DNA from: a virus
Virus record (IMG/VR): IMGVR_UViG_3300048115_000173
Span: 1 to 40,311 of that record
Reading direction: 5' to 3' (one strand)
DNA: 40,311 nt
Numbering within the stretch: position 1 is the first letter of the stretch; each line of letters begins with the position of its first letter. Position numbers and translations under genes: made by a program. Below, piece by piece: positions 14,561 through 38,568 of this stretch. The notes under the pieces are model-generated. The model was not told where the DNA came from. It was given only the letters and a program-made list of their open reading frames with translations, and did no database searches.

Positions 14561-14590
14561 TTGGATAACTAAATAAGTTGCGTATCTTTG
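14561..14590 (+). promoter_or_regulatory. Bacteroidetes-type early promoter (phage A operon)
   Basis: TTG (14561-14563), a 19-base spacer, and TATCTTTG (14583-14590), an exact match to the Bacteroidetes -7 consensus TAnnTTTG. Twenty bases, AAATAAGTTGCGTATCTTTG, are identical to the phage B promoter at 34649. Two more copies precede the terL-flanking cassettes. The CA-rich leader to the ATG at 14616 contains no Shine-Dalgarno sequence. Confidence 0.9.
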
Positions 14591-14615: not shown

Positions 14616-14855
14616 ATGAACTACTCAATCACACAAACAATCGCACGAGTCAAGGAGACAGCAACTGGAACAATGGCGAACGGCAACAAGTTTAACTCAT
14701 GCATCTACTTCAACGGATGCGAGTGGAAAGTTCAACTCACTTACTTTGAAATTGAGTCTGACGGATGCATTAACGAAGTGACTGACCCGAACATCTTCAC
14801 TGGATGGACTAAGGCAGAAGCAAAGGTTGCACTCATGAACGCACTCGCAGCATGA
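14616..14855 (+). CDS. First early gene of phage A, 79 aa, unknown
   Basis: The protein starts MNYSITQTIARVKETATGTM and has no recognised domain. It is the first gene after the strong early promoter, a position often held by host-takeover or anti-defence proteins (inference). Its opening MNYSI resembles the first residues of the proteins at 22486 and 34708, but the rest does not align, so only the promoter, leader and start region seem shared. The next gene is coupled by an ATGA overlap. Confidence 0.75.
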   Translation: MNYSITQTIARVKETATGTMANGNKFNSCIYFNGCEWKVQLTYFEIESDGCINEVTDPNIFTGWTKAEAKVALMNALAA

Positions 14856-15064
14856 ACAACGAGCCCGAATGGTTTCAGCAAGTGCTAAACCGAACCAAAC
14901 AAACGCAATCAATTTTCACCATGAACGACAACAAACAAACAGAACTCAAGCAAGCGTGGCTCACCTTGCATGACCTCCGACAGGAGCAACCCACAACCCA
15001 TCGTCTAACACGAACCGCGCTACAAATGGCGATGGATATCGTACAAGAAAACATTCAGCTATGA
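14852..15064 (+). CDS. Early protein, 70 aa, unknown
   Basis: A Gln/Thr-rich small protein (NEPEWFQQVLNRTKQTQ) with ATGA overlaps at both ends, inside the early operon. No membrane segment or motif. An internal ATG at 14921 (MNDNKQTELKQAWL) follows a CA-rich stretch and could be an alternative start. Function unknown. Confidence 0.6.
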   Translation: MNNEPEWFQQVLNRTKQTQSIFTMNDNKQTELKQAWLTLHDLRQEQPTTHRLTRTALQMAMDIVQENIQL

Positions 15065-16574: not shown

Positions 16575-17246
16575 ATGAACGGAATATGGATACCCCAGGA
16601 GATTTGGTTGTTGGATGACCTCTCTCCCATGCAAAGAATTCTCCTCTCTAAAATTCACGCGCTCAGTCACAAAGACGGGTCGTGTTGGGCGGGAGATGAC
16701 TTCCTCGCTGAGTCTCTTGGGGTCTCTTCTCAGTACATCCGTAAAATGCGGAAGGACCTTTGCGAGACTGCACACATCAAATGCGAAGGGTACGGTCACC
16801 GAAGGAAGATGACGGTTCTTGTAGAAGCAACTATCGGAACAAGCAACTATCGGAACAAGCAACAATCGTTGCAAGAAGAAGCAACTATCGTTGCAAAAGT
16901 TGCAACTACTGTTGCAAAAGAAGCAACTACAGTTGCGCAGAGTATAGAGAAGAGTAAAGAGAAGAGTAAAGAAGTAGTGAAGAGAGTACGTTTCAAGGAA
17001 CCGAGTTTGGAAGAAGCGATGCATTCGTTCGAACTTGCGGGATCATCTCGCGACGAAGGCGAGAAGTTTTGGAACTACTACGAATCAAACGGATGGAAGG
17101 CGGGCAAAAACAAAATGAAGAACTGGCAAGCCTCCGCCCGAAATTGGATAAAACGATCAAATGAATTTACAACGAACAAAACAGGAGCTGCAAAGCAACC
17201 AAGCAAAAACCAGCTTGAAGACTATCTCAAGCACGGGACTATTTAA
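16575..17246 (+). CDS. Replication initiator-like protein with intragenic iterons (phage A)
   Basis: A 223-aa protein. Residues ~1-85 form a winged-helix-like domain (IWIPQEIWLLDDLSPMQRIL, then DDFLAESLGVSSQYIRKMRKDL) of the type at the N-terminus of phage replication initiators. The middle (about 88-122) is a repetitive Ala/Thr/Val linker encoded by the iterons. The C-terminal part (about 137-205, FWNYYESNGWKAGKNKMKNWQASARNWI) is a common module of such initiators. It matches the phage B protein at 37825 in layout. Like lambda O, it probably binds its own iterons and recruits the replisome. Confidence 0.75.
   Translation: MNGIWIPQEIWLLDDLSPMQRILLSKIHALSHKDGSCWAGDDFLAESLGVSSQYIRKMRKDLCETAHIKCEGYGHRRKMTVLVEATIGTSNYRNKQQSLQEEATIVAKVATTVAKEATTVAQSIEKSKEKSKEVVKRVRFKEPSLEEAMHSFELAGSSRDEGEKFWNYYESNGWKAGKNKMKNWQASARNWIKRSNEFTTNKTGAAKQPSKNQLEDYLKHGTI
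16827..16936 (+). repeat. Iteron array inside the initiator gene: candidate origin (phage A)
   Basis: Four 14-bp palindromes of form GCAAC-N4-GTTGC start at 16859, 16881, 16902 and 16923 (spacing 22, 21, 21, about two helical turns each). Two imperfect half-sites, GCAACTATCGGAAC, precede them at 16827 and 16843. The following ~55 bases are almost purely purine on this strand (AGAGTATAGAGAAGAG-like). Iterons next to an asymmetric A-rich tract inside an initiator gene is the layout of the lambda origin. Confidence 0.75.
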
Positions 17247-18903: not shown

Positions 18904-19103
18904 GCTTCACAGCAACAGAACGGGAGATCATAGCGGAGAACATCCGCCAATTCCTCAAACAAGACCAGAAAGAGAAGTTCGAACACCAGCACTTCGGAGG
19001 AGATCCCTTCCTCGTGAAGCGTGTTCTTCCCATTACACAATACGACAAAGAGACCCTGGAGAATATTGCACGGGATGTCGAAGGTAGAATCTTACACCCA
19101 TGA
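18900..19103 (+). CDS. Small acidic/basic helical protein, 67 aa
   Basis: It starts in an ATGA overlap and ends in an ATGA overlap with the methyltransferase gene. It is charged and helical (TEREIIAENIRQFLKQDQKE), with HQHFGGDPFLVKRVLPITQY in the middle. No family was recognised. The location suggests that it is co-made with the methyltransferase. Confidence 0.6.
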   Translation: MSFTATEREIIAENIRQFLKQDQKEKFEHQHFGGDPFLVKRVLPITQYDKETLENIARDVEGRILHP

Positions 19104-20050
19104 CTCATGGCTCACTTTTCTCAGGAATCGGAGGCTTTGATCTCGCGGCTGAATGGTCAGGGTATACCAACCTCTTTAACTGCGAGTGGGAAGAATTCCC
19201 TCGCAAAGTCCTCAAACACCACTTCCCCAATGCAGAACAATTCGGAGACATCAAAGAATTCAACGCGACAGCTTACTCTGGAAGACTTGATATCCTCTCT
19301 GGAGGGTTCCCCTGTCAACCGTTCAGCGTTGCAGGAAAACGGAAAGGCTCAGAGGATGAACGCCACCTGTGGCCGCAGATGCTTAGAGTTATCGGAGAGT
19401 GTCAACCCCGTTGGGTCGTGGGAGAGAACGTTCGCGGGCTTGTTAGTTGGTCGGACGGATTGGTACTCGAAGAGGTGTACTCTGACTTGGAAGCTCTCGG
19501 GTACTCCGTCCAATCGTTTATTATTCCAGCTTGTGCCACGAACGCTCCCCACAGACGCGACAGAGTTTGGATTGTTGCTCACTCCGACAACTTCGGAACC
19601 CGTTCACGACTTGGAGAAATTCAAAGCGAGAATGGAGAAGTATCCGAATGGAACAACGATGCCAAACTTAGCGACACAGATTCACGGAATGCTCCCGACA
19701 CCGACAGCGGTAGATGCAAAAGGAGCATACCGACCGGAGTCTATGATAAGCAAAAACGGAAAATTCGACAGGACGGAGAGGCTATCAAATATATATCTCA
19801 AGACTGGAACGGAGTACAATTCGAAAACTTCCCAACTGTCCCCCCTATTTGTAGAGGAGATGATGGGCTTCCCAAAGAACTGGACGGCATTACCTTTCCA
19901 AAGTGGCGAAGAGAATCCATCAAAGCATACGGAAACGCAATAGTTCCTCAAGTCGCACACCGTATATTTGAATCAATTAAAGACTATGAGAAACGCAAGA
20001 AAAGCCCTCCTCCATGCGAAGAACTTCCTTCTCATCACGGAGAACGATAA
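19100..20050 (+). CDS. dcm: C5-cytosine DNA methyltransferase
   Basis: A 316-aa enzyme with motif I FSGIGGFD (7-14), motif IV GGFPCQPFS with catalytic Cys72, motif VI ENV (109-111), motif VIII HRRDRVW (151-157) and motif X AYGNAIVPQ (276-284). It methylates the C5 of cytosine in a short target that cannot be read from the sequence. No cognate restriction enzyme is nearby, so protection against host restriction is the likely role. About 88% of the gene is open in a second frame (see next entry). Confidence 0.9.
   Translation: MTHGSLFSGIGGFDLAAEWSGYTNLFNCEWEEFPRKVLKHHFPNAEQFGDIKEFNATAYSGRLDILSGGFPCQPFSVAGKRKGSEDERHLWPQMLRVIGECQPRWVVGENVRGLVSWSDGLVLEEVYSDLEALGYSVQSFIIPACATNAPHRRDRVWIVAHSDNFGTRSRLGEIQSENGEVSEWNNDAKLSDTDSRNAPDTDSGRCKRSIPTGVYDKQKRKIRQDGEAIKYISQDWNGVQFENFPTVPPICRGDDGLPKELDGITFPKWRRESIKAYGNAIVPQVAHRIFESIKDYEKRKKSPPPCEELPSHHGER
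19107..19943 (+). CDS. Overprinted ORF within the methyltransferase gene, 278 aa
   Basis: In the +1 frame of the methyltransferase there are 278 codons without a stop. The product carries blocks that I recognise from proteins found in phages next to C5 methylases: WERTFAGLLVG (105-115), WYSKRCTLTWKL (119-130), LLTPT and LPTPTAVDAKG (157-206), and LSPLFVEEMMGFPKNWT (244-260). Such blocks would not appear by chance in a shadow frame, so both frames probably encode protein. Its function is unknown, perhaps a partner of the methylase. The start at 19107 is the first ATG in the frame and the N-terminus is uncertain. Confidence 0.6.
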   Translation: MAHFSQESEALISRLNGQGIPTSLTASGKNSLAKSSNTTSPMQNNSETSKNSTRQLTLEDLISSLEGSPVNRSALQENGKAQRMNATCGRRCLELSESVNPVGSWERTFAGLLVGRTDWYSKRCTLTWKLSGTPSNRLLFQLVPRTLPTDATEFGLLLTPTTSEPVHDLEKFKARMEKYPNGTTMPNLATQIHGMLPTPTAVDAKGAYRPESMISKNGKFDRTERLSNIYLKTGTEYNSKTSQLSPLFVEEMMGFPKNWTALPFQSGEENPSKHTETQ

Positions 20051-20924: not shown

Positions 20925-20954
20925 TTGCATAACGAAAAAACTTGCGTATCTTTA
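20925..20954 (+). promoter_or_regulatory. Early-type promoter of cassette 1 (between terS and terL)
   Basis: TTG (20925-20927), 19-base spacer with CATAACGAAA and CTTGCG, then TATCTTTA (20947-20954). It matches the early operon promoters in both spacer length and the TTGCGTATCTTT core. An in-frame ATG at 20959 would be at or before the transcription start, so the real start must be the ATG at 20983. Confidence 0.85.
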
Positions 20955-20982
20955 CACCATGACAAACGCAAACAACACTACC

Positions 20983-21204
20983 ATGAACGCTCAACAACTA
21001 CACGGCCGATTCGTAAACGTAACAGGCAAGGGATTCGGTGAAGTAATTGATTTTGTAATCGACGGAGGCGACTACAACACCAACATCGTCGAGCTTGTAA
21101 CCATTCTAACCGCAGACGGTCGCAACATTGTTGCAGCTCCTAAGTCTTGCAATGTTATGACTTACAACGAATACCAAGACTTCTGCGAATTGGCAGGAGT
21201 TTAA
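20983..21204 (+). CDS. Cassette 1 (moron-like) protein, 73 aa
   Basis: It reads MNAQQLHGRFVNVTGKGFGEV, IDFVIDGGDYNTNIVELVTI and ends NEYQDFCELAGV, a small soluble alpha/beta-looking protein of unknown family. The start is set by the promoter position. The leader AAACAACACTACC before the ATG matches the leader of the phage B gene at 34708. It has its own promoter and terminator and interrupts the terS-terL pair, the definition of a moron. An early anti-defence or host-modifying role is inference. Confidence 0.75.
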   Translation: MNAQQLHGRFVNVTGKGFGEVIDFVIDGGDYNTNIVELVTILTADGRNIVAAPKSCNVMTYNEYQDFCELAGV

Positions 21205-21211
21205 TTTAAAC

Positions 21212-21232
21212 GCCCCTTCGGGGGCTTTTTTT
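21212..21232 (+). terminator. Rho-independent terminator of cassette 1
   Basis: GCCCC (21212-21216), TTCG tetraloop, GGGGC (21221-21225), then seven T. A stable UUCG hairpin directly before the large terminase start, so terL must be reached by readthrough or by another signal. Confidence 0.9.
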
Positions 21233-22398: not shown

Positions 22399-22431
22399 AA
22401 AAGAAAAAAGAAAAAAAATGTGTTTAGGTAG

Positions 22432-22461
22432 TTGGATAACGAAAAGAATTGCGTATCTTAG
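22432..22461 (+). promoter_or_regulatory. Early-type promoter of cassette 2 (after terL)
   Basis: TTG (22432-22434), 19-base spacer GATAACGAAAAGAATTGCG, then TATCTTAG (22454-22461), one base off TAnnTTTG. It carries the same TTGCGTATCTT core and is followed by a CAAACAAACGAAAC-type leader without Shine-Dalgarno to the ATG at 22486. Confidence 0.8.
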
Positions 22462-22485
22462 CCAAACAAACGAAACAAACAGATA

Positions 22486-22755
22486 ATGAACTACTCAATC
22501 CAACAACTACAAGACCTTGATTCTCAGCTAGTTATAAGCGGTAATTCAACTTCAATTGATTACATTCAGGGAGGTAAATACGTAATCGAAGGCATATTCA
22601 ACCCAGCTCAGGCAATTGTAAAGTATCGAGATTGGCTAGTTGTTTTAGAAGATTGCGGAAACGGTTTTGAAGCAATAAGCGCACGCAACACAATGACAGG
22701 AACAGAATACAGTAACCCGCTGCAATGGTTTTCAAATAAAGTCATTCAAGAATAA
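22486..22755 (+). CDS. Cassette 2 (moron-like) protein, 89 aa
   Basis: It begins MNYSIQQLQDLDSQLVISG and contains YIQGGKYVIEG, IVKYRDWLVVLEDCGNGFE and MTGTEYSNP. It is a close homologue (most residues identical) of the first early gene of phage B at 34708, although here it is an isolated unit after terL with its own promoter and terminator. No known domain. The compact beta-like core and early promoter suggest a small early-acting protein, perhaps anti-defence (inference). Confidence 0.8.
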   Translation: MNYSIQQLQDLDSQLVISGNSTSIDYIQGGKYVIEGIFNPAQAIVKYRDWLVVLEDCGNGFEAISARNTMTGTEYSNPLQWFSNKVIQE

Positions 22756-22757
22756 CA

Positions 22758-22781
22758 AGCCCCTCACGGGGCTTTTTTTTT
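22758..22781 (+). terminator. Rho-independent terminator of cassette 2
   Basis: AGCCCC (22758-22763), loop TCAC, GGGGCT (22768-22773), followed by a T run to 22781. It closes the single-gene unit after terL. Confidence 0.9.
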
Positions 22782-22808
22782 GCCCTAACTTTCGGGCTAC
22801 CCGCACGA

Positions 22809-22846
22809 TTCACGCAAACACGCAAAATTCACGCATTTTTCACGCA
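22809..22846 (+). repeat. CACGCA repeats upstream of the tail operon
   Basis: Four CACGCA hexamers start at 22811, 22819, 22830 and 22841, three of them within TTCACGCA. They lie in the 107-base gap between the cassette 2 terminator and the tail-chaperone gene, where a promoter for the late operon is needed. They could be binding sites for a phage activator or the phage sigma-like factor. No TAnnTTTG box is present here. Confidence 0.5.
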
Positions 22847-22888
22847 TTCCATTTTGTATAAGGAAACCAAACAAATCAAGTTATTAGA

Positions 22889-26500: not shown

Positions 26501-26992
26501 AGGATTTACGACGGCAGCACGGGCGTGGTGACGGAGAACGGCAAGCCAGCGGTGGAGATTGACCGTTCAGAATATTTGTCATTTAATTCAAGAATTTACA
26601 CTGCAAGAACAATGGTTGCAGTATTGAACATGACTGCCTTTCAATATAACAGAGTTTGCGGTAATAGCGTAGAAATTGAGTCAGGTATCAAAGGGTGGTC
26701 GGACGGAGGCGGTCTAGATGATGTAAACGAGAAGTTTAATATAAACGCCGTGTCTGTGAATGGAGCGCTTGACACGACTAGACCATATGGCAGCGACATG
26801 ATTGGCTTGTATAATTGCAGCTATTTTACTGGCGATGGCGTAGACTCGGATGGACTTGGTGAAATTGGCTGGCACGTTAATAATCGAAGCCTAAAAGGTA
26901 ACTTGCAAGAACTCATAGTATACCCTGTAGAAGACACAGTTAACCGCACTGACATCGAGGACAACATCAACACTTTTTACGACATCTACTGA
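23561..26992 (+). CDS. Tail fibre/receptor-binding protein, 1143 aa
   Basis: Residues ~1-160 (ERFEDFATSHFFIKSFSFG, YNIEVYILDVPADK) look like a tail-completion-type structural domain that in related phages I recall as a separate protein. Residues 409-502 are 17-aa repeats. Residues ~655-890 and ~900-1143 are two tandem concanavalin-like domains with the ArabFuran-type signature: AYSTRQLRF (661) with WKDQSGNGNDAT (714), and AYSLRLLDS (908) with WYDQSSNSNTA (961). They likely bind cell-surface glycans. The last 104 codons recur at the window start. The next gene overlaps the stop (TGATG). Confidence 0.8.
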   Translation: MITFNNIVERFEDFATSHFFIKSFSFGSPDDVDLAKFTEFPLMHLVYTGATYDSGTKTYNIEVYILDVPADKSDKVERQREVVSDAEQCAEDIIADIRMGGNIFTFAQDYEVVNATTTPLEEETKNVLSGVLLDLSVAIPYEWDACNAPIDGVTPGGGDEPSYARRGFLRMLTLDGSTDVLSVRTIKVNNGTLTDDGEGVVTLDTGGVDTLAALTDVTLANLENHDVLKYNSGQTRWENVDWLLILYTELKQGTTTTQNNGSRTDSALELTVTQAKLKAGITGVEITETSPGDIDLIVATDASGSTAYTAINIDGSKTANEADINLYGNVYIHDEGNGTKARMRLNSADNVNLSLPTSSGTLALTDDIPSAPVDSVNGQTGVVVLVTTDIDEGTNLYYTEARVAANAAVVANTAKVGITTQQAADITANNAKTGITPTQASEITANTAKVGITTQQADDITANNAKVGITQTQADDITANNAKTGITPTQAGEITANTAKVGVIAGGTSGQALVKASGTDYDLEWADAASGVQYHERFATDAETFRSGATDTVELYYTAKADGDGLAESASSDTPTAGKVIKRKIYYSEAAFADPDTGTWVEFTTLADDITFANAKAALLEYLKARTGGTVPISLKQTWEEVSDTAYLLDETFGSGAEAAYSTRQLRFAQTDCMVIRRASDSTTTTIGFDGSGNISEADIETFCTGTSCTVSEWKDQSGNGNDATAAAPSNEPTIYTGGALVKDGGRVAFTSTASTSFDFTQISNVNSVFSVLRPTDFTNSNSSFILGDSTNFDYHSGNSAEWLSATHADPVVRNGDNYLNGLSVNLTTLARSAGQYVLSMIHTDGTAVASRISKDRFLTRSWVGNRQELIIYSDDRTNDRTGIESNMGDYFTQNTPLLDTYSGAAAAYSLRLLDSTYTGDAIEVYNGSSYADIGFNVFGELDTVALAAHCGSNDGLVSKWYDQSSNSNTAAQTVTSKMPRIYDGSTGVVTENGKPAVEIDRSEYLSFNSRIYTARTMVAVLNMTAFQYNRVCGNSVEIESGIKGWSDGGGLDDVNEKFNINAVSVNGALDTTRPYGSDMIGLYNCSYFTGDGVDSDGLGEIGWHVNNRSLKGNLQELIVYPVEDTVNRTDIEDNINTFYDIY
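24785..25066 (+). repeat. 51-bp (17-aa) tandem repeats in the fibre gene
   Basis: Five full units and one partial unit of 51 bp encode ITAN(T/N)AK(V/T)GIT(T/P/Q)(Q/T)QA(D/S/G)(D/E), starting at 24785, 24836, 24887, 24938, 24989 and 25040. Codons vary while the peptide is kept, so selection is on the protein. Such repeats form an extended trimeric coiled-coil shaft in phage fibres. Confidence 0.85.
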
Positions 26993-27393
26993 TGAACGGA
27001 TTTATCATAGTCCTACCAACGGACACGCAGACAAGCGAGCGCAGAGCGTACCAAATAACGCGCGAACTATACAACATAAGCCGACCCGTTTTGATACAGG
27101 CAGAAGGCGAAGCAGCCTCGACCGTGTTCGGGATTGTAGTACACCCTGACGGAGTACAGAACGCGCTGCAAGTGGATACCGATTACCTTATCAACGTACA
27201 CCCTGCTGCAAACCTCGAACGCCTTGTTGCTTGCTTCCCTGAGCTGTCAAACGATGAGCGGTATTCCCTCAGTAGTTACGTGCAAGTGAATCAGCGGTTC
27301 CCTTTCGGGCATATCGTGCCAAGCGATACGACGATCCGAACACAGGAGTACATGGAGGAAAACGGGTGGTTTACTGATCAACCTGAAATTGAT
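26679..27393 (+). repeat. Second copy of the 715-base segment at the window start
   Basis: Bases 1-715 align here without a gap at a constant offset of 26678. The fibre part differs by only a few bases. The 133-aa gene has increasing differences, and similarity ends at its stop codon. The sequences following the two copies (716 onward and 27397 onward) are unrelated. This marks the phage A/phage B boundary. Confidence 0.95.
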
Positions 27394-34610: not shown

Positions 34611-34648
34611 GTGCGCTAAAAAAAAATCAAAGTTTTTTACGAAAAAGC

Positions 34649-34678
34649 TTGCGTAACGAAATAAGTTGCGTATCTTTG
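34649..34678 (+). promoter_or_regulatory. Bacteroidetes-type early promoter (phage B operon)
   Basis: TTG (34649-34651), a 19-base spacer and TATCTTTG (34671-34678). The last 20 bases are identical to the phage A promoter. An in-frame ATG at 34666 lies inside the promoter, so translation must begin at the ATG at 34708, behind a CAAACAAACAACACTACC leader. Confidence 0.9.
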
Positions 34679-34707: not shown

Positions 34708-34971
34708 ATGAATTACTCAATCCAACAACTTCAAGACCTTGACGATAAGTTAGTTATAAGTGGTGATTCAACTTCAATTGACTACATTCAAGGCGGTAAA
34801 TACGTTATGGAAGGCGTATTGAAACCAGCTCAAGCAATTGTGAAGTATCGAGATTGGTTAGTTGTTTTAGAAGATTGCGGAAACGGTTTTGAACCAATAA
34901 GCGCACGCAACACAATGACAGGAACAGAGTACAATAACCCAATGCAATGGTTTTCAAATAAAGTAAAATGA
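34708..34971 (+). CDS. First early gene of phage B, 87 aa, unknown
   Basis: It begins MNYSIQQLQDLDDKLVISG and is closely similar over its whole length to the cassette 2 protein at 22486 in phage A. It is the first gene after the early promoter and is coupled (ATGA-type overlap) to a tiny acidic ORF. No known domain. High conservation between otherwise diverged phages, and two genomic contexts, suggest that it is valuable and mobile. Confidence 0.8.
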   Translation: MNYSIQQLQDLDDKLVISGDSTSIDYIQGGKYVMEGVLKPAQAIVKYRDWLVVLEDCGNGFEPISARNTMTGTEYNNPMQWFSNKVK

Positions 34972-37828: not shown

Positions 37829-38568
37829 AGCGTAAAGGCATATACATACCGCTGGAGTTGTGGAATCTTGGCGAGTTGCATCCTAATGAACGGGTGTTGC
37901 TTGCTGAGGTTGCCAGCTTTGAGGACAAGAACAAACCATGCTTTGCAGGAAACGAACACTTTGCCCAACTGCTTAACGTATCAACGGCCACGGCACGGGG
38001 CTATATTTCCAAGCTTGTAAACGCTGGTTTTCTAGTCCGAGAGGGTGACAGATACAACAGACGACTGCGTAGATTAGCGCAAACGAGTGCGCAGAATAGC
38101 GCAGACGAGTGCGTAGATTCACGCAGACGAGTGCGTAAATCCGCGCAAACGAGTGCGCAGAATTCAGCACATACTATATCAACTACTATATCAACTACTA
38201 ATACATCTACTAATAGTGCAAAAGTGTTGAATGTTGTTTTGCCGTTTCAATCGGAAAAATTTGAGGCGGCATGGAACGAATGGAAAGAGTACAAACAAAC
38301 AGACCACAGATTCAAATACAAATCCCACAAAAGCGAACAACGGGCACTAATCAAACTACAAAATGAACACACCAACGAAAACGACGCAATCGACGCAATT
38401 CATACAGCAATTGCAAACGGATGGAAAGGCTTGGTATTTAACTCACCCAAAGGCGGGGGAGCTAACAAGCGGCGAGCGGATAACCTTGAAAGAGATGTCA
38501 ACCGCGAAAAGCTTGCAGAATTTGCAAGAACTGGACGTATCACGCCTGACGGTGGAAACGTGCTTTAA
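37825..38568 (+). CDS. Replication initiator-like protein with intragenic iterons (phage B)
   Basis: A 247-aa protein. Winged-helix-like N-terminus (IYIPLELWNLGELHPNERVL, HFAQLLNVSTATARGYISKL), a low-complexity linker (about 78-130) encoded by the iterons and an A+T-rich stretch, and a C-terminal domain with EAWNEWKEYKQTDHRFKYKS and AIHTAIANGWKGLVF. Same layout as the phage A initiator at 16575 although sequence identity is low. Expected to bind the iterons and start replication. Its 3' end overlaps the partner gene. Confidence 0.75.
   Translation: MKRKGIYIPLELWNLGELHPNERVLLAEVASFEDKNKPCFAGNEHFAQLLNVSTATARGYISKLVNAGFLVREGDRYNRRLRRLAQTSAQNSADECVDSRRRVRKSAQTSAQNSAHTISTTISTTNTSTNSAKVLNVVLPFQSEKFEAAWNEWKEYKQTDHRFKYKSHKSEQRALIKLQNEHTNENDAIDAIHTAIANGWKGLVFNSPKGGGANKRRADNLERDVNREKLAEFARTGRITPDGGNVL
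38055..38158 (+). repeat. 22-bp iteron array inside the initiator gene: candidate origin (phage B)
   Basis: Four 16-bp units of form (G/A)CGCA(A/G)ACGAGTGCG(C/T) start at 38077, 38099, 38121 and 38143, exactly 22 bp apart. A degenerate fifth unit is in phase at 38055. Most have inverted arms GCGCA/TGCG(C/T). Because 22 is not a multiple of 3, the same DNA is read in different frames in successive units, so DNA sites, not a peptide, are conserved. An A+T-rich tract with repeated CTATATCAACTA follows at about 38172-38220. Confidence 0.8.

Follow-up and report, generated by a model that had tools for sequence, protein, structure and literature searches.

The DNA analysed here, hereafter the window, is the whole of IMG/VR viral contig IMGVR_UViG_3300048115_000173 (40,311 bases). 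Its gene content and order resolve it into two phages: phage A (approximately 1-26,680), with portal, capsid, protease, tail, lysis and early genes, terS and terL, and phage B, which occupies the remainder through to the contig end and comprises tail, lysis and early genes. That A is one phage is supported by another contig, G014 (25,174 bases; loci L057 and L058), which displays the A gene order, with terL split across both ends. A tail-fibre tip/134-aa gene pair is present in both phages (1-709 and 26679-27387; 91% DNA identity between A and B). It is succeeded by an A gene in 3/3 A-type contigs and by a B gene in 4/4 B-type contigs, whereas both followers occur in the window; for this reason the contig is read as A and B joined, i.e. 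probably as a chimera connected through the shared tail-fibre module, the joining having most likely arisen in assembly. The module, the probable joint of the contig, is probably itself an exchanged one.

The best cultured match of the portal protein is Nonlabens phage P12024S (34%) and that of terL a Flavobacterium phage (43%), which makes a host among the (marine) flavobacteria likely; the phages with the top terL and portal matches, from Flavobacterium and Nonlabens, measure 36-43 kb. A host search in genome_contigs returned no exact match to the promoter described below, no near-identical pattern and no relative of the 89-aa protein, and an Rfam search of the window gave no match. Elsewhere in the window, the ORFs 19100-20050 and 19107-19943 lie in different frames and have 837 bases in common. 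Each has a DNA methyltransferase PHROG as its match (phrog_363, E 1e-75; phrog_1008, E 1e-23), which suggests two overlapping genes. Tandem repeats of 21-22 bp within the replication-initiator genes of both phages (16857-16936 and 38061-38161) are perhaps origin iterons.

After terL, phage A carries a compact cassette on the + strand. An A-rich left flank (22399..22431), common to cassettes with other genes, precedes the promoter TTGGATAACGAAAAGAATTGCGTATCTTAG (22432..22461), an 89-aa ORF (22486..22755), whose family we call fam89, and an intrinsic terminator composed of AAGCCCCTCACGGGGCTT and a T-run (22757..22782; stem 22757-22774; fold z = -4.4). The same terminator sequence is found behind unrelated genes in this position, which we term slot T, and the right edge of the slot is TAAGGAAACC (22859..22868; 27 empty sites compared). 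Repeats of the TTCACGCA type occupy 22808-22848, downstream of the terminator and ahead of the following gene. The first-pass annotation had described the gene as a promoter-gene-terminator unit after terL, and this description is correct.

The slot T promoter has TTG at -33 and a -7 element of the TANNTTTG type with one deviation; it was aligned with three other copies and matches the pattern TTGNNTAACNAAANNANTTGCGTATCTT exactly. Exact matches to this pattern in the window begin at 14561, 20925, 22432 and 34649, with 0 expected (100 shuffles). All are on the + strand, the other three being the early promoter of phage A (14561..14590), the promoter of a second cassette between terS and terL (20925..20954) and the early promoter of phage B (34649..34678). 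The four fit the Bacteroidota promoter consensus TTTG / TANNTTTG as described in PMC6847099. The B-type early promoter also includes two copies of a 17-bp unit, ACGAAATAAGTTGCGTA, at 34639-34672, possibly a regulator site.

The 89-aa protein is alike along its length to the 87-aa product of the first early gene of phage B (34708..34971, + strand), with 76/86 aligned residues identical, and the DNA of the two loci is 86.5% identical across 312 bp, promoter included. This likeness had been noticed in the first-pass annotation, which also correctly placed the phage B copy, itself without a terminator, at the head of the early operon. The accompanying statement that the pair is far more alike than its neighbours holds for the other genes common to A and B (endolysin, repO, NinG, 17161 and 16328; 30-40% identical), but not for the tail-fibre tip/134-aa pair, which is also close. 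Likewise, the 79-aa first early protein of phage A (14616..14855, + strand) does have MNYSI in common with the 89-aa protein, but it belongs to a separate family, without a relative among the loci searched, and the likeness is confined to the leader and first codons.

Three further contigs (L003, L004 and L005) contain fam89; a profile scan for distant relatives yielded the same three, and the phage collection gave no fam89 match. In the B-type L004 and L005 the gene heads the early operon. In L003 a 97% identical copy with the same terminator is located between the capsid and connector genes (slot M), and the other genes which L003 has in common with A are 30-46% identical, except for the 134-aa tail-fibre gene (94%). 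The family therefore has three sites in total, after terL (A), at the early-operon head (B-type) and in the capsid/connector gap (L003), so it is not bound to one fixed locus. Its similarity does not track the rest of the genome, and vertical descent with the genome was not seen. Comparison of the copies gave dN/dS values of 0.16-0.21, which we take as purifying selection. The protein is acidic (pI 4.4). An AlphaFold2 model built from 5 close sequences (mean pLDDT 61.7) was too weak to use, and Foldseek with this model against PDB and BFVD found none at E <= 0.001; a sequence search against solved structures gave E 0.14 or worse throughout.

The occupancy of slot T was recorded in the best 80 of at least 598 relatives of A's terL, chosen irrespective of promoter. 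The slot holds a cassette in 29, is empty in 27 (terL-to-next-gene stretch of 30 bases or less), contains the TTCACGCA-type repeat stretch without a cassette in 20 and is unreadable in 4; near-duplicates among the loci (e.g. L116-L119) make these counts not independent. The 29 cassettes represent 18 unrelated gene families, which agrees with the earlier suggestion of an interchangeable gene set. The terminator GCCCC...GGGGCTTTTT is present in 29/29, and a host-type promoter occurs within the first 140 bp in 27/29 (shuffles: mean 0.20, max 2). At empty sites GGAAACC... comes straight after the terL stop, the codon for which is provided by TAAGGAAACC, and occupied sites end with TAAGGAAACC ahead of the next gene. 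The GC content of the T-slot genes ranges from 0.357 to 0.541 and is not uniformly foreign; fam89 has 0.38, against 0.48 for phage A, and the cas73 family, known from slots E and S, has 0.45. In L076 the terL cassette contains a different gene and, after it, the final fam89 codons, a scar of replacement. Slot T was found solely in A-type phages.

The second cassette of the window (20925-21232) is of the same build and lies in the terS-terL gap, slot S. Its promoter is followed by an 81-aa ORF (20959..21204, + strand; 73 aa from the second ATG at 20983) and a terminator (21212..21232, + strand). The same gene heads the early operon in the B-type loci L006, L007, L023 and L059, and in L058 slot S is empty. 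Among the 80 terL relatives, 46 have an empty slot S, 8 a recognised cassette and 25 another insert (no ORF meeting the rule, hence kept as 'other'), and 1 is unreadable. Clean empty/occupied pairs were seen at both slots T and S. In L077 and others, the terS-terL gap measures 158-167 bases and has a shorter insert, a TATATTTG-like element and an ORF seemingly running into terL. Genes with MTNANNTT and METLT leaders (window 20959; L006, L009, L014, L058) have their first ATG at +1 under the F. johnsoniae spacing given in PMC6847099, which suggests leaderless mRNAs if this spacing holds.

The head of the early operon constitutes slot E. A-type early heads vary, and all four examined (window, L058, L020 and L064) differ. 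Slot-E examples in general were located via the promoter and form a biased sample. Behind the early gene of phage A itself there is a short 3' module (MNNEPEWFQQVLNRT...; 14852..14917, + strand) coding for MNNEPEWFQ-VL-RT, which also follows 9/29 T-slot cassettes belonging to 6 families. The idea that the MNNEPEWFQ piece of the T cassettes is a remnant of the second early gene was rejected, as it is absent from the early heads of L058, L020 and L064. At the early-operon head of the B-type L059 (9925-10530), two complete cassettes stand in tandem, each with a promoter and terminator.

A scan of viral contigs with the promoter pattern detected 45 stretches, and a second pattern 32; each of the 45 records searched has one or two promoter copies. 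Outside the window the promoters mostly stand at the head of the early operon, where endolysin, phosphoesterase and a small gene precede them; the others are placed between terL and the gene corresponding to 22889. The table of promoter loci omits L016, L019, L026, L031 and L038 (same contigs as other rows) and has no row for L070, L071 and L073, in which the full pattern is absent; in L018, L021 and L050 the promoter is near the contig end, with no complete ORF. A Bacteroidota-type promoter is predicted near the ORF in 78/82 cassettes, none being recognised in 4/82, and its strict form is predicted in at least one member of 23/35 gene families.

Altogether, the slots yielded 84 cassettes in 35 families, 7 of which occupy more than one slot. 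Families were built by single linkage (blastp E <= 1e-4 over 55% of the shorter length, or phmmer E < 1e-5), and the family count excludes L043 (family of L082), L008, L034 and the degenerate early head of L064. The best cross-slot identities are 86/89 (fam89, T and M), 80/81 (cas73, E and S), 61/62, 53/55, 76/88, 58/73 and 39/68. When 47 pairs of the same family in different slots were compared with unrelated cassettes, identity was 0.515 versus 0.496 in the flank and 0.763 versus 0.765 in the core promoter. Different families in the same slot reached 0.659 in the upstream flank and 0.890 in the core promoter; slot and lineage partly coincide in this comparison, slot T being A-type only. As flank and core are alike within a slot and not within a family across slots, it appears that the gene, sometimes with its leader, is exchanged under a resident promoter, while promoter and flank stay with the slot or lineage. 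The first-pass annotation had a promoter-plus-gene unit moving between sites; the different sites of the homologues agree with this, but the promoter and its upstream flank do not travel.

Mobility of the entire promoter-gene-terminator unit as one cassette would account for the leaders of cas73 and the 55-aa family, identical across slots (1.00), and for the S-slot promoter of the window, which is 90-97% like the promoters of B-type relatives. The 47 cross-slot pairs, whose flanks and cores resemble each other no better than those of unrelated cassettes, and the three different promoters of fam89 in T, E and M speak against it, and we consider it unlikely. It could also be argued that the two copies in the window are merely a product of chimeric assembly and carry no information on mobility, given that A and B are joined at their common tail-fibre module and that the window has both the A and B followers. 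This seems highly improbable, since each kind of placement turns up again in other contigs: A-type loci have the slot, L004 and L005 carry fam89 at the early head, and in L003 the gene follows the capsid gene.

Another view would regard the slot genes as neutral ORFan insertions or drifting leftovers with no common role. These genes are short (51-109 aa, median 70). None of the 35 families matches Pfam or PADLOC, the matches to PHROG (1/35) and NCBIfam (2/35) are weak, and the slots are frequently empty, which would suit such a view. On the other hand, the dN/dS of fam89, the intact ORFs and the retention of promoters and terminators speak against it, and we find this explanation quite improbable. 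A more specific proposal is that the slot genes serve superinfection exclusion or virion/host-fitness functions instead of host takeover or counter-defence. Some morons of temperate phages are, according to PMC4378225, lysogenic conversion genes which benefit the host; here, however, the predicted promoter is the same as at the early-operon head, which points to expression at entry, and we regard the proposal as rather doubtful.

We suggest, with considerable confidence, that fam89 comes from an accessory, moron-like gene pool whose members are exchanged for one another in the slots, probably by recombination, in at least two uncultured phage lineages with promoters of Bacteroidota type. The slots and their empty sites, the unrelated occupants, the families present in several slots, the promoter and terminator sequences and the purifying selection on fam89 are seen in the sequences themselves. 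According to this gene-pool model, the phage genomes would keep slots after terL, in the terS-terL gap, at the early-operon head and, once, after the capsid gene. Each slot would consist of a resident promoter read by the main sigma factor of the host, one short gene and, except at the operon head, a strong terminator, and may also stand empty. The left arm of an exchange would be provided by recombination in the near-identical promoter/leader, and the right arm by recombination in the terminator or the short common 3' module. The mosaic pattern leads us to infer homologous recombination at these arms as the route of exchange, and the slot promoters are presumed to fire early. One observation does not sit easily with the model: a terminator placed directly after terL would be expected to break a late operon, which raises the question of how a terminator ahead of a downstream virion gene is tolerated.

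Several known systems resemble the one proposed here. A moron is described (PMC4378225, PMC1524935) as a single coding region with a promoter and terminator, located between genes that are adjacent in relatives, and often of odd base composition. As with the morons of lambdoid and Mu-like phages, the slot genes are inserted between genes adjacent in relatives (cf. the 27 empty and 29 cassette-bearing T sites and the 46 empty S sites among the 80 loci), have by prediction their own promoter (78/82 cassettes) and, in the T slot (29/29), their own terminator. In contrast to morons, operon-head copies such as that at 34708 have no terminator, the promoter resembles the phage's own early-operon promoter, and different genes have the slot, promoter and terminator in common, the same genes serving also as operon heads. 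In T4-like phages, PeSLs (promoter early stem-loop), composite elements of an early promoter and a terminator, are thought to mediate the shuffling of accessory genes (PMC4503421). In slots T and S the gene stands between a promoter and a terminator, which, by the description of a citing paper, may liken these cassettes to PeSLs. However, the phages studied here are approximately 25-27 kb and not T4-like, the sequences are unrelated, and the slots have a host-type Bacteroidota promoter, one gene each and, in part, a position beside the terminase genes.

In the early anti-defence regulons of archaeal viruses, as outlined in PMC11065993, small accessory genes that are diverse and unrelated to one another lie downstream of a conserved early regulatory sequence. 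The predicted conserved promoter of the present cassettes (strict in 23/35 families) likewise precedes diverse small genes, but these are bacterial phages and their slots have both empty and occupied states. On the basis of sequence comparison, we consider the slots to be a moron-like or PeSL-like system, set apart from the known ones by its fixed positions, by a promoter that stays in place and by the apparent passage of genes from operon head to isolated cassette or back. Among the literature titles and abstracts, we recognised none that describes slots of this kind for flavobacterial phages.

A role of the slot genes at entry, in host takeover or counter-defence, is plausible, as it fits a host-type promoter like that of the early operon, dispensability and high turnover. 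We regard it as about as likely as not that the slot proteins target the host or its defences. What began as an idea of swappable accessory genes is now expressed as a set of slots that can be counted and that show empty sites, occupants unrelated to one another and common arms, within a terL group of at least 598 relatives. The arms may provide a handle in searches for small candidate anti-host genes without detectable homology, comparable to the approach to archaeal viruses presented in PMC11065993. We propose, tentatively, that this widespread phage group possesses plug-in sites by the terminase genes and at the early-operon head, the fixed arms of which might import counter-defence genes singly from a cross-lineage pool. 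If this plug-in reading is true, the arms alone would reveal the anti-host repertoire of uncultured flavobacterial phages.
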